This document shows positions 3,553 to 19,739 of a DNA stretch of 20,067 bases, one piece after another. Position 1 is the first letter of the stretch, and the number at the start of each line of letters is the position of its first letter. The notes beneath the pieces were generated by a model. That model was not told the origin of the DNA. It saw nothing but the letters and a program-made list of their open reading frames with translations, and did no database searches. Origin of the DNA: a virus; IMG/VR virus record IMGVR_UViG_3300020056_001281, positions 1 through 20,067 of that record; one strand, 5' to 3'. The translations under genes were made by a program, and so were the position numbers.

Positions 3553-4086
3553 TTATCTTAGAAATTCTTTGTAGTCTAAATTATATTTAAAACTGTCTAC
3601 TTTGTGTATACCTATTAAATATAGCACATAACTAGCTACGGAGCTACCTCTTCCTACGCCCCATACAATGTTATTTTCTCGCATAAAGTCTACAAGATAA
3701 ATTAGATACCTTAATAGATCAATCATACCATATTTTTCATATTCGTACAATTCGTCATCTATTCTATCTATTCTTTTTTCATCATAATGCCTAAGATACT
3801 GTGCATCGTAAAGCCACCGAGCTACGTCTAGTTGTTTATATGTATCAGGCATCAACCATTCTGATTGACACACTGCATCAAACTGTGTTTTATCTACATC
3901 TAAAGGAATATACTTTTGTAGCTTATCGAAACCTTGAGCTTCCATAGCACTGTTAAATTTGTCTATGTCGTTACTTGGTTCGCATAATACAATATGGCAT
4001 TTGTCAGCATTGCCACTATAAATCATATCGATAAGATTTTGATTGGTGAAACGAGGTACACCGAGGTTGTCAGTTTTCATAAGCAT
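3553..4086 (-). CDS. DnaE-like fragment without polymerase catalytic residues
   Basis: This is a 177-residue protein. Its C-terminal 75 residues match the segment of bacterial DNA polymerase III alpha subunit just before the active site: DELYEYEKYGMIDLLRYLIYLVDF, then GVGRGSSVASYVLYLIGI (143-160), ending with YNLDYKEFLR where DnaE has LxFERFLN. The protein stops there. The PHP domain and the catalytic Asp triad, which follow in real DnaE, are missing, and the DNA downstream codes for QueD, not a remnant. The first 100 residues are not recognised. It cannot polymerise DNA by itself. It may be a domesticated accessory protein. The start is uncertain (ATG at 4086 or 4080) and there is no good ribosome-binding site. 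Confidence 0.7.
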   Translation of the reverse strand: MLMKTDNLGVPRFTNQNLIDMIYSGNADKCHIVLCEPSNDIDKFNSAMEAQGFDKLQKYIPLDVDKTQFDAVCQSEWLMPDTYKQLDVARWLYDAQYLRHYDEKRIDRIDDELYEYEKYGMIDLLRYLIYLVDFMRENNIVWGVGRGSSVASYVLYLIGIHKVDSFKYNLDYKEFLR

Positions 4087-4924: not shown

Positions 4925-4932
4925 TATTTATA
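4925..4932 (-). promoter_or_regulatory. Perfect T4 late-promoter octamer TATAAATA
   Basis: The minus strand has the exact T4 late consensus TATAAATA over the stop codon of the 929-residue gene, 45 bases upstream of the next start codon and just upstream of the AATAAATAC copy. It could be a second, tandem late start site. In AT-rich DNA an eight-base match can arise by chance. Confidence 0.4.
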
Positions 4933-7717
4933 CAACATATTCTTTGTTTTGTAAAACAATATATTGTTCATCCGATCTAGATTCGCTATTATCAATAATT
5001 AATCTATCTACATCTAATTCAAATTGTTTAAAATTAATATTATTATTTTCTATCAGTTCTTTTATTTTTTCACTAGTGCCCGGCTTACAATAACATAAAA
5101 CTAGTGATGGCACATATCCAATTTCTGCAATTGAACTTTGAGGTGTTTGCATCCACAAAGGTAAGAAATCTTTTTCAGTTTCGCCTATTTTGAAAATTTC
5201 TTCCCGTAAATTTTTTATACTTGATACAGATCTTTTATTTTTGTATACACTATCTATAGTGTACAGATCTAAGTCAACCGTGACAACATTTGGAGTGTTA
5301 GGTCTAATTTTATATGCAGTATTTGCACCTGCATCTATTAAATCTACATCTAAAATATTTCCTAATTGACTTTCAATAAACAAATTGTTATTATCTAATG
5401 ACCAAATTAATGAGCCGTTGTCTCTAGTTTCTATAGGCAAATACACATAATATTCTATTATTTCAGTACCGGTTTCTCTTGTTACAACAGATATAGTATA
5501 CGGTTTACTATCATAATATTCTACCTCTTCGCTAAAATGACTGCTGTTTATTAATAAAGGTACTGTACTGTTATCTGTATATATTTTACGTGCCCTGCCT
5601 TTTTTAGGTATATTATCGTCTATAAGGTCAAGATAGACTACTTCGTATACAGGATTTTGTGTACCTAACTCCATAGCAATTGCAGTTTTCAAATTTCCGA
5701 TTTTATAAGTTTTTCTCTTTGCATATAGATTTGATGCTGCTACATAATGGTTAATATCTTTAGTTTCTATACCACTATATACTAGGATTTTAGGGTCGTC
5801 TTGAATACCAAAGTTTTTATCGTCTGGCCTATACAGCCATTCTGGTTTAAAAATACTAGGATCATTTATAATATTTCTATATTCTTGTCTTAATGTTTTT
5901 TGCAATAGTGGTTTCATAAAAATATTACTGTATTGCTTATTATTAGGATCGTCTACAACAATAGAAAATGTTCTAGTATTCAAGCTTAATCCATAATAAT
6001 CTTTAGCTGCTACAGTAAATTCAAACTTTCTATCTAAGCGTGTTGTATTGCCGTCGAATTGAGTGTCCCCGCTATCAAAAACAGTCAAGCCTTGGGCATC
6101 AATAGAACCATAGCTTTTTACTGTGCCAATTAATTCTCCTTCTAAGTTTAGTTGTAAGCCCGGAGGCAAACTACCAGACTGTACTGTGTAGAAAACATTA
6201 CTTCCTGTTGTTGATATTGCTTTTATATTTTTTGTACTTACGTAATTTGCGCTAACTGATCCTAAGTTAGAATCAGTCTGCCAAGTAATACTACTATTTG
6301 TCTCACCTAACAAGTTTACTTTAAAAGTTTTAGTAGCTTTAGCTTCTTCTACTTCGGATAAAACAAAAAATCCTAAATTAATTTCAGTGCCTTTAGGAAT
6401 AAAAGATCGTGTACCGTATGTTAAAGTGAGTTTATCATATTCACTATTTGATAAATCTGCTGATAAAATTTTGTAAGTATGGCCTAATACAGTAAATGAT
6501 TTATTAATAATATCTAAAGCTGTTACTTTTTCAAGTTTACTAATTTTAATAGTTGCAGAATTAAATGGTGTATCTTCAGTTGTTGTTTGTTGAAGTTCTA
6601 CACTTTCGTCGTCGTAATTTACTCTTATTGCAGAAATAGTAAATTTGTATTCTTTTGTTAAATATGGCTGATAAGGACTGCGTCCTACTATATAACCATT
6701 TCTAAAATCTAATCCTAGCCCAGGCGGAAGTATGCTATCACTGCCGTCGTTATTAACATCTTCTAGTCTATACCATACAAATCCGCCTAAGGTATCATTG
6801 TTTATTACTTGCAACGGTAAAGATATATAATTGTTTGCTCTTCTGTATCCAAAATTTTCAGGAGTAAGCCAAATGGGATTTCTTAATTTAGAAACATCTG
6901 CTGTAAATGTGCCAGTGCCTGCCTGCATTGCTGTCACGTCGGCGGTAAAAAAATCATCGCCTATAACATAAATTCTAAATGTTCTATCTATAACATATTG
7001 TCCATCTGTAACACTAACTGTAAATTGAAAATATCTGTTTAGTTTCCTTGGTGCTTTAGCAGGGCCGTCTATATCATATTGTACTAGGTCATAAAAATAG
7101 CTATCAAACCCTGCAGAAGTTTTTTGCAAAGCGCCAAACCAATCATAACCTGCATTTGTTTCAAAATCGTATGCACCTATATCATACCCGCCTGTTATAG
7201 ATTTTTCAATAGCTAAAATCGGATCAACAATGCCTTGTATTTTACCATCTTTAGTCAAAGATAATCCCGGAGGCAATATACCACTACTAGGCTTAATATA
7301 AAATTCTAAAATTTGACCTGCGTTAATATCAGGATCTTCAACTACTAATTGAAAGTCTACAACAGAATTATCTAAAACATAATAGGTATTATTGTTGCCT
7401 GCAGGTAAAAGATCTTCGGGAGTTTTCCAAACAGGTATGTCAGATCCATCTACAACAATGTTAAATGTACGATCATATATATTGTTATTAAAACTAGCAC
7501 GTAAAACAAATCTGTATTTGGTCTCATAAGCAACCTCGGTCGGAGTGCCAACTATTTGTTGGCCCACTAGACGTGTGCCTTTTGGCAATTTTCCACTAAT
7601 AACTTTTATTTCAGCAGTAGGCTCTGATATAGGTAATTGCAAAGATACAATCGTGTTTTCTACAACATTTCCTATTGTAGTGCCTGAAGGCTCATTCCAT
7701 ATTTGATCAATGTGCAT
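4928..7717 (-). CDS. Large virion protein with Ig-like (He_PIG) repeats
   Basis: This 929-residue protein carries several Ig/cadherin-like modules of the He_PIG type, each with a (L)PxGxxL...G.I.G turn. These are LPKGTRLVGQQIVGTP (44-59), ILPPGLSLTKDGKIQG (147-162), ILPPGLGLDFRNGYIVG (329-345) and SLPPGLQLNLEGELIG (516-531). Each is followed by beta-strand patterns such as RTFxIxV (83-89, 245-251, 582-588). There is no signal peptide. Such modules on phage particles usually bind surfaces or space out tail or fibre parts. The last third (about 590-929) has no recognised repeat. The start has AGGAG and AATAAATAC upstream, so expression is late and strong. Position in the virion is inferred from neighbouring fibre genes. 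Confidence 0.75.
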   Translation of the reverse strand: MHIDQIWNEPSGTTIGNVVENTIVSLQLPISEPTAEIKVISGKLPKGTRLVGQQIVGTPTEVAYETKYRFVLRASFNNNIYDRTFNIVVDGSDIPVWKTPEDLLPAGNNNTYYVLDNSVVDFQLVVEDPDINAGQILEFYIKPSSGILPPGLSLTKDGKIQGIVDPILAIEKSITGGYDIGAYDFETNAGYDWFGALQKTSAGFDSYFYDLVQYDIDGPAKAPRKLNRYFQFTVSVTDGQYVIDRTFRIYVIGDDFFTADVTAMQAGTGTFTADVSKLRNPIWLTPENFGYRRANNYISLPLQVINNDTLGGFVWYRLEDVNNDGSDSILPPGLGLDFRNGYIVGRSPYQPYLTKEYKFTISAIRVNYDDESVELQQTTTEDTPFNSATIKISKLEKVTALDIINKSFTVLGHTYKILSADLSNSEYDKLTLTYGTRSFIPKGTEINLGFFVLSEVEEAKATKTFKVNLLGETNSSITWQTDSNLGSVSANYVSTKNIKAISTTGSNVFYTVQSGSLPPGLQLNLEGELIGTVKSYGSIDAQGLTVFDSGDTQFDGNTTRLDRKFEFTVAAKDYYGLSLNTRTFSIVVDDPNNKQYSNIFMKPLLQKTLRQEYRNIINDPSIFKPEWLYRPDDKNFGIQDDPKILVYSGIETKDINHYVAASNLYAKRKTYKIGNLKTAIAMELGTQNPVYEVVYLDLIDDNIPKKGRARKIYTDNSTVPLLINSSHFSEEVEYYDSKPYTISVVTRETGTEIIEYYVYLPIETRDNGSLIWSLDNNNLFIESQLGNILDVDLIDAGANTAYKIRPNTPNVVTVDLDLYTIDSVYKNKRSVSSIKNLREEIFKIGETEKDFLPLWMQTPQSSIAEIGYVPSLVLCYCKPGTSEKIKELIENNNINFKQFELDVDRLIIDNSESRSDEQYIVLQNKEYVV

Positions 7718-17007: not shown

Positions 17008-17299
17008 GTATAGATTTCCTTGTTACTGTATTTATTTGATTTTGTAAATTGTTGGTATCGCGAGTTAGCTTACGCATTTGATTTTGCATTTCTTTTATTA
17101 TTCTTGCTTGGTCTGCAACTTTTTGTTCAAGCGTTTCAACATATCTTTGCGAGGCAACTGATTGCTCACTGCCGTCTTCTGCTATCAAAGTGTAACTATT
17201 CATTCCGTGGGCTCTTAAACCGCCCATCACTCGATTAGGATTTTTATTCGATGATGTGGTTTTAGTACCATACATAGTGGTTAAAAATGAGGATTGCAT
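16982..17299 (-). CDS. Coiled-coil protein, probably structural, 105 aa
   Basis: I do not recognise the family. The start at 17299 (MQSSFLTTMYG) is chosen because AAGGAAAA precedes it; the open frame reaches 17404 but that part lies across the promoter region. The N-terminal half is polar and Gly/Asn-rich. Residues about 51-95 (QRYVETLEQKVADQARIIKE and QNQMRKLTRDTNNLQNQI) form a heptad-like coiled coil, as in trimeric phage fibre or neck proteins. AATAAATAC lies 22 bases upstream. The 3' end overlaps the IscA-like gene and contains that gene's late promoter and ribosome-binding site. Confidence 0.75.
   Translation of the reverse strand: MQSSFLTTMYGTKTTSSNKNPNRVMGGLRAHGMNSYTLIAEDGSEQSVASQRYVETLEQKVADQARIIKEMQNQMRKLTRDTNNLQNQINTVTRKSIHDNSVSYR
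17028..17036 (-). promoter_or_regulatory. T4-like late promoter inside the coiled-coil gene, serving iscA-like and giant fibre genes
   Basis: AATAAATAC lies on the minus strand 20 bases before the ATG at 17007, within codons of the 105-residue gene. It is the nearest late motif upstream of the 2244-residue gene, which has none of its own. Confidence 0.65.
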
Positions 17300-17323
17300 T
17301 GTTTTTCCTTTTGCGTGTATAGT
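17294..17323 (+). promoter_or_regulatory. Sigma70-like promoter for the plus-strand metalloprotease
   Basis: TTGCAT (17294-17299) and TATAGT (17318-17323) are 18 bases apart on the plus strand. TATAGT matches five of six -10 bases. The -35 lies over the first codons of the divergent coiled-coil gene. Transcription should start near 17330, about 16 bases before the ATG at 17346. Confidence 0.45.
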
Positions 17324-17330
17324 ATTTATT
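17322..17330 (-). promoter_or_regulatory. T4-like late promoter of the coiled-coil gene
   Basis: AATAAATAC lies on the minus strand 22 bases before the ATG at 17299. It overlaps by two bases the -10 box of an opposing sigma70-like promoter. Confidence 0.68.
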
Positions 17331-17345
17331 TGCGCTAAATACTGT

Positions 17346-17906
17346 ATGTTTAAAACTTTATTCTCAATCGTAACCGCATTTATACTGTCATTAGTCTTTG
17401 CCAAACCAGCTTATACAGAAACAATTGAAGAAGCTAAAATGCTTGAACTTATCAATTGGATTATAGACGAATCTGCTATCTACGAATATAACGACGAGCC
17501 ACTGCCAAAAATTGTTTATGCTACACAAGAGCAATTAGGTGCTTACTTCTACGGCTTAGATACTTACTTAGAAAATGAAGACACCTTGTTTCCTATAGAA
17601 GGCATTTTTAGAAGTGCTGACGAAGGCACTATATTTTTGTTAGACGATTTTGATTGGGAAAGTGGGTCTACAATGGATATTGTAGTACATGAACTTGTGC
17701 ATTATCTGCAATATATTAATGGTCGTACATTTTCGTGTAGCGTGGCAGGCGAAATAGATGCATATAAGTTTCAATCAATTTGGCTAATGAAAAACCCAAT
17801 TCCTAATAGACAAGAACCTACTTTTTTAACTGCTGTTTATATAATAGAAACTTGCATAGCAGAAACTTTGAGAAATTCTAATTTAGATGAAACTCCACCT
17901 AAATAA
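17346..17906 (+). CDS. Predicted secreted HExxH zinc metalloprotease
   Basis: This is a 186-residue protein. The start at 17346 is preferred over the frame's first ATG (17256) because it gives a textbook signal peptide (MFKTLFSIVTAFILSLVFA, cleavage near 19-24). The gluzincin-type motif VHELVHYLQ (114-122) supplies two zinc His ligands (H115, H119) and the catalytic Glu116. E136 in AGEIDAYKFQ, 17 residues on, is a candidate third ligand. C131 and C170 could form a disulfide in the periplasm. It is the only plus-strand gene here, and its 3' end overlaps the uvsE stop by 8 bases. No Shine-Dalgarno is visible. Possible targets are cell-envelope proteins, during lysis or to block superinfection. 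Confidence 0.75.
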   Translation: MFKTLFSIVTAFILSLVFAKPAYTETIEEAKMLELINWIIDESAIYEYNDEPLPKIVYATQEQLGAYFYGLDTYLENEDTLFPIEGIFRSADEGTIFLLDDFDWESGSTMDIVVHELVHYLQYINGRTFSCSVAGEIDAYKFQSIWLMKNPIPNRQEPTFLTAVYIIETCIAETLRNSNLDETPPK

Positions 17907-18933: not shown

Positions 18934-19299
18934 CTACACTGGTTCAGCAGCAAGAGCAAGAAAAGTTTTCTCTTTGCCGGTTATTTCGTATGAGCGATGC
19001 CCGCCGGCGATAACCTGAACACTTTCTCTATCTTTAATACAAATCCATCGATCAAAGTTAGTATAATGTATGAGAATCTTATTGGAATCTAAGATTCTCA
19101 TAAATTTTTCGTGACTGACACGCTTCTTCTGTACATTCTCCAGCGCCTCTTTAGTAATATACTCATCGTCGTCTATGTTATCTTTGTGAACCATAAGGGT
19201 AGTTGTTTCAGCCTGCACACGACCATCACAAATGAAGTAGTATACCTTTAAAGTAACCCGGTTCCAGGGTCGAATGCGCGGAAAGTAGATATCTGTCAT
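18934..19299 (-). CDS. Hypothetical protein, 121 aa
   Basis: I do not recognise this protein. It is soluble-looking with beta-strand-rich ends (VTLKVYYFICDGRVQAETTT; WICIKDRESVQVIAG) and a charged helical middle (about 42-66, DDDEYITKEALENVQKKR). The start at 19299 overlaps the stop of the ATT-start gene as TAATG, so translation of the two is coupled. It ends 9 bases before uvsE. The nearest purine-rich stretch (GAGGA) lies about 13 bases upstream of the ATG, too far to be ideal, which favours coupling. Confidence 0.7.
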   Translation of the reverse strand: MTDIYFPRIRPWNRVTLKVYYFICDGRVQAETTTLMVHKDNIDDDEYITKEALENVQKKRVSHEKFMRILDSNKILIHYTNFDRWICIKDRESVQVIAGGHRSYEITGKEKTFLALAAEPV

Positions 19300-19487
19300 T
19301 ACACAAGTGTATCCTCGTAATGGTCAAGCCGCTTGTTAGTTACAGTATACCAAAAACTATCACCTTTTTTCTCAACAGCTTTCACACCGGCTTCATCAGC
19401 TAACTCTTTTGAAGAGAAAACGCCCACTAGTTTTTGCCAATAGCCAGCGGGCGGTTTTTTGTAAATTATAGTAACGTAAGTTTGAAT
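19299..19487 (-). CDS. Small protein with apparent ATT start codon, 62 aa
   Basis: An open frame of 62 codons fills the gap between the 83- and 121-residue genes and contains no ATG. It reads (I)QTYVTIIYKKPPAGY, WQKLVGVFSSKELADEAG and later GDSFWYTVTNKRLDHYED. This is a protein-like sequence, and the VGVFSSKELADEA part recalls small phage proteins with a VxGVFSSxExA motif. The best start is ATT at 19487: GGAGG ends five bases upstream, inside the final ATG-GAG-GCA-TAA codons of the preceding gene. ATT directly follows that in-frame TAA. The stop overlaps the next gene's ATG as TAATG. An internal AUU start has been reported in T4 gene 26. A later GTG (codon 21) would lose the first strands. 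Stop-codon readthrough is an alternative. Confidence 0.6.
   Translation of the reverse strand: MQTYVTIIYKKPPAGYWQKLVGVFSSKELADEAGVKAVEKKGDSFWYTVTNKRLDHYEDTLV
19421..19453 (-). promoter_or_regulatory. RNA hairpin followed by a U-rich run, in the 5' part of the ATT-start gene
   Basis: On the minus strand CGCCCGCTGG pairs with CTAGTGGGCG, giving a 10-bp stem with two G-U pairs and a 13-base loop, then TTTTCTCTT. On the plus strand the same positions give A-C mismatches, so the structure fits minus-strand RNA. It may be an attenuator, weak terminator or translation-control element. Confidence 0.4.
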
Positions 19488-19739
19488 TTATGCCTCCATT
19501 ACATAAGCCATGTCCCATCCCCAATTAGCATTACGCTGCGGGATGTCAACATCGGCAATGTTAGTTTCTTCGTTAAGGGAAACAACGGAAATTTCCATAC
19601 ATGCTTCGTTACGGAGCTTTTCAATTGCTTCAGCTACGTTACTAGCTTGAACTGTTGCTACCAGCTCAGTCTCTTGTGTCAGCTGTTCTAAGTCAAAGTA
19701 GGGTGCACCAACAGGGCGAGTAAGTTCAAACGTTTTCAT
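19488..19739 (-). CDS. Hypothetical protein, 83 aa
   Basis: I do not recognise this protein. The start at 19739 (MKTFELTRPVGAPYF) is chosen because AAGGA stands before it at good spacing; the upstream ATG at 19787 lies inside the preceding gene. The sequence looks like a small alpha/beta domain (TELVATVQASNVAEAIEKLR, then ISVVSLNEET). It ends GWDMAYVMEA, where the last codons also form the GGAGG ribosome-binding site of the next gene. There is no membrane or cysteine motif. Confidence 0.7.
   Translation of the reverse strand: MKTFELTRPVGAPYFDLEQLTQETELVATVQASNVAEAIEKLRNEACMEISVVSLNEETNIADVDIPQRNANWGWDMAYVMEA

Follow-up and report, generated by a model that had tools for sequence, protein, structure and literature searches.

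A 62-codon open reading frame beginning with ATT very probably encodes a free-standing phage protein whose translation is initiated at AUU through a strong Shine-Dalgarno (SD) sequence, probably in coupling with termination of the gene upstream. Comparison with relatives indicates that the small gene is real, makes its ATT start well supported, and suggests that a known type of start, seen in infC and cvfC1, has a new example in this phage.

Locus and coding frame

The analysis covered a virus record of 20,067 bases (the window), which may be a fragment. Nearly all of its large frames lie on the minus strand, as does the small frame. Reading downstream, the gene order on this strand is a 102-aa gene, an 83-aa gene, the 62-codon frame, a 121-aa gene, and a UvdE (UV-endonuclease) gene (Table 1). 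A first-pass annotation had described a 62-codon frame between two genes with its stop in TAATG. This was correct, with coordinates 19487..19299 on the minus strand, and the last A of the TAA stop (19301..19299) is shared with the ATG of the 121-aa gene. Direct reading of the sequence also confirmed GGAGG at good spacing before an ATT that is the next codon after the upstream TAA: the frame opens ATT CAA ACT TAC, immediately 3′ of ATG GAG GCA TAA of the 83-aa gene. The first ATG, GTG, or TTG within the frame is a GTG at codon 21 (19427).

Table 1. Features at the small-gene locus
Feature	Window position	Strand	Observation
Small gene, 62 codons, first codon ATT (IQTYVTIIYKK...YEDTLV, presumably fMet-QTYV...)	19299..19487	-	Frame conserved in 10 further contigs; pN/pS 0.21 (codons 2 to 62); the other five frames all interrupted by stops in the homologue comparison
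ATT start codon	19485..19487	-	At this codon, 6 distinct homologous sequences have ATT and 2 have ATG; resemblance to the ATG forms sets in here
SD sequence GGAGG, 5 bases before ATT	19493..19497	-	Kept in L002 and L003, which lack the 83-aa gene; GAGGT in L005
Upstream 83-aa gene, ATG start, end VMEA-TAA, probably translationally coupled	19488..19739	-	Homologues in 8 contigs; same TAA end in L024 and L025, which have no small gene behind it
Downstream 121-aa gene, ATG overlapping the small-gene stop (TAATG)	18934..19299	-	Only in some relatives

Elsewhere in the window, a 177-aa minus-strand frame (3553-4086) matches a PHROG of similar length (171) labeled DNA polymerase. Because much longer polymerase families are matched too, over part of their length, the frame seems to be a split or free-standing polymerase piece. 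A 216-aa plus-strand frame (17256-17906) carries a HELVHYLQY motif, resembling zinc metallopeptidases, and had no PHROG match; plus-strand frames of similar size and with a like beginning occur in L037, L038, L040, L042, and L047. The 121-aa gene contains a perfect 13-bp inverted repeat (TATGAGAATCTTA ... TAAGATTCTCATA) at 19069-19102.

By itself, the SD-plus-ATT string is weak evidence for a start, GGAGGN5ATT occurring once in the window compared to a mean of 0.29 in shuffles. The claim is therefore carried by comparison, in which both frame and position are conserved in ten other contigs with full copies.

Start codon and upstream arrangements in relatives

Relatives of the small gene are encoded in 11 viral contigs, and 10 of these hold the full frame. 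Codon 1 is ATT in the window and seven contigs (six distinct sequences), ATG in three contigs (two distinct sequences), and nothing else. A pattern scan in which the start codon was left open returned matches only in the ten full-copy contigs. The first-pass annotation had asked for such a comparison of relatives, and the finding of ATT or ATG at exactly the start codon supports its proposal of a genuine gene initiated at the ATT that follows GGAGG. Sequencing error at the ATT was rejected, as ATT recurs in contigs of several separate metagenomes. Because the homologues all come from metagenomic contigs of a single phage group, their independence is limited.

Five upstream arrangements of the start region were present among the window and its relatives. 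In the first (window, L001, L006, L007, and L008), the 83-aa gene leads through GGAGGCATAA to ATT. In the second (L002 and L003), the 83-aa gene is missing, and the 102-aa gene leads into the same ATGGAGGCATAA, then ATT. In the third (L005), the 102-aa gene ends in TAA and is followed by TTAGAGGTATTAATA and ATT; an ATA precedes this ATT, with SD spacing equally good for both. The other two arrangements hold the ATG copies. In L004, the 102-aa gene has a changed end that overlaps the ATG (TAATG), while in L009 and L010 a longer homologue of the 83-aa gene is followed by an 11-codon frame and TGATG. Likeness of these ATG copies to the window starts exactly at codon 1. Across the arrangements, the SD match is GGAGG or GAGGT in ATT copies and at most 3 bases in ATG copies.

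The whole block between the 102-aa and UvdE genes (window 18934-19739; L001 to L010) is reshuffled among the relatives, with genes on either side of the small gene present in some and absent from others. For example, the 121-aa gene is missing or different in L001, L002, L005, L006, L008, and L009. In L008, from about 297, it is seemingly a remnant, with a TGATG-coupled mini-frame whose end (LAAEPV-stop) is as in the window.

In a tree, ATG copies fall in both main branches and ATT copies do too (modest support), so that the start codon must have switched two or more times or been exchanged through recombination. The occurrence of ATG in two lineages would also fit a history in which ATT copies are decaying forms of an ATG gene that lost its start codon and now have little or no expression. 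This history is very improbable, because the ATT copies are found on both sides of the main split in the tree, remain open under purifying selection, and have a better SD sequence than the ATG copies.

The upstream stop codon

The annotation had offered, as an alternative to initiation at ATT, read-through of the TAA that would fuse the 83-residue upstream protein to the 62-residue segment. The sole point in favor of read-through is register: in each of the three ATT arrangements, the upstream stop shares the frame of the small gene. This pattern is also compatible with rare read-through and would arise by chance in about 1 in 9 cases, counting the two arrangements beyond that of the window. 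However, the in-register partners, the 83-aa and 102-aa genes, are mutually unrelated. In L002, L004, and L005, the small gene stands behind a gene other than the 83-aa gene, and in the ATG copies (L004, L009, and L010) the upstream and small frames are not in register. In L024 and L025, the 83-aa gene likewise terminates at this TAA, and what follows is an unrelated gene with an ATG start, identifying the TAA as the natural end of the 83-aa gene. The restriction of codon 1 to ATT or ATG would also go unexplained under read-through, and TAA is generally the least leaky stop. A fusion protein is thus disfavored, and we give it very little credence compared to independent initiation at the ATT.

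Coding constraint near the start

Eight distinct sequences of the small gene were used to calculate pN/pS, which was 0.13 for codons 2 to 11 and 0.11 for codons 21 to 62, in addition to the overall value in Table 1. By this measure, purifying selection acts on the frame already at codon 2 and beyond.

This constraint bears on whether translation might start further down, at the GTG of codon 21 in the window or a TTG at codon 20 in L006 and L007, giving a protein of about 42 residues behind an untranslated 5′ part. The GTG is the first canonical start of the frame and is what a standard ORF listing reports. Yet codons 2 to 11 are strongly constrained at the protein level, the GTG has no SD sequence and is not conserved (GTA in L006 and L007), and a protein started there would be missing one whole predicted strand, the first, along with half of the next. 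A later start also fits poorly with the homologues whose codon 1 is ATG, and we regard it as a slim prospect.

Synonymous change in codons 2 to 11 was the minimum of all segments along the small gene (0.083, versus 0.411 beyond), and codons 12 to 18 differ en bloc between the two tree branches. A similar depression was absent from the 102-aa and UvdE genes and present in some other genes, partly where sequences were few. As a signal specific to ATT, the low synonymous change was not supported, because the ATG copies share the codons concerned; a signal common to both forms, or recombination, could be its cause. Among 166 coding frames in 12 stretches of the phage group, an SD sequence with a noncanonical codon and no early canonical start was seen only in copies of the small gene, and a general habit of noncanonical starts in the group was rejected on this basis.

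Predicted structure and database relatives

The predicted model of the 62-residue protein has the order E-E-H-E, with strands at residues 4 to 10 and 18 to 24 and a mean pLDDT of 75. Positions 16 to 46 of the Pfam DUF7336 profile (PF24024) align with residues 19 to 49, scoring 16.3 bits, below the 25-bit gathering cutoff; by this alignment, the domain would begin near residue 4. Foldseek comparison to viral models returned many small phage proteins at high probability and weak E values (at least 0.009), including a DUF7336 protein from Bacillus phage Spock. The DUF7336 member U5PY09 matched with an E value of 0.032 and a probability of 0.91, and no match fell below an E value of 0.001. The profile match to DUF7336 is weak and subthreshold, and the predicted fold is probably DUF7336-like.

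Comparison to PDB folds gave no convincing match, and the literature searched contained no mention of DUF7336. GenBank phage records contained no DNA match to the region and no protein match to the small frame or to a 929-aa frame at 4928-7717, and no relative was found in bacterial genomes.

Proposed initiation at AUU

The conserved 5′ end of the small gene lacks a canonical codon in ATT copies, ATT and ATG alternate at the same site, and the SD sequence is strong, all features of an AUU start. The reality of the gene, its start position, the alternation of ATT and ATG, and the difference in SD strength can be read from the sequences; from these we infer how ribosomes would use the AUU. GGAGG, 5 nt upstream of the AUU, would place the 30S subunit, and ribosomes finishing the 83-aa gene at the adjacent UAA would probably reinitiate at AUU with fMet-tRNA. 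The weak codon combined with a strong SD sequence would give modest output, presumably held down by IF3. Elsewhere in the phage group, the small gene has moved behind other sequences, with two lineages having ATG, almost no SD sequence, and overlap with the upstream stop. Predicted RNA structure at the start was no more stable than in shuffles, and promoters and terminators were found at no more than about chance level.

Among genes starting with GUG or UUG, there is a known tendency for a stronger SD sequence to compensate for the weak start codon (PMC5622118). The two ATG and three ATT arrangements are suggestive of a similar trade-off in the small gene. That start codon and ribosome binding site are balanced specifically to hold output low, with ATT wherever recombination has placed the gene behind a strong SD sequence and ATG behind a weak one, is an improbable proposal. 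Under it, AUU forms of the gene might tie the protein to IF3 levels or to the fidelity of initiation in the infected cell.

Several known systems share parts of this layout. Escherichia coli infC, encoding translation initiation factor IF3, has an ATT start, and IF3 represses such starts (PMC5472188). The phage gene has the same noncanonical start codon, but infC is a self-regulating cellular gene, while the phage protein is unrelated and its control by IF3 would be an extrapolation. Staphylococcus aureus cvfC1 encodes 61 aa from an AUU start with an extended SD sequence, and its output from AUU is ~10% of that from AUG (PMC13009471). Both cvfC1 and the phage gene encode small proteins, have AUU conserved among relatives, and carry a strong SD sequence, and by analogy the phage gene may likewise pair this strong SD sequence with reduced AUU output. 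However, cvfC1 heads its operon and retains AUU across the staphylococci, whereas the phage gene lies behind the stop of another gene and alternates between ATT and ATG. As in coupled reinitiation at M13 geneV-geneVII (PMC2268962), the phage start adjoins or overlaps an upstream stop; unlike M13, it uses a five-base SD sequence and AUU, and coupling is suggested by layout alone.

Significance

Well-supported AUU-initiated genes are rare, with infC and cvfC1 as examples, and a limited literature search found no AUU-initiated phage gene. Gene callers restricted to ATG, GTG, and TTG would miss the small gene or drop its first 20 residues. Because the gene occurs naturally with either ATT or ATG, and behind several different upstream sequences, it offers a ready test of compensation between start codon and SD sequence.
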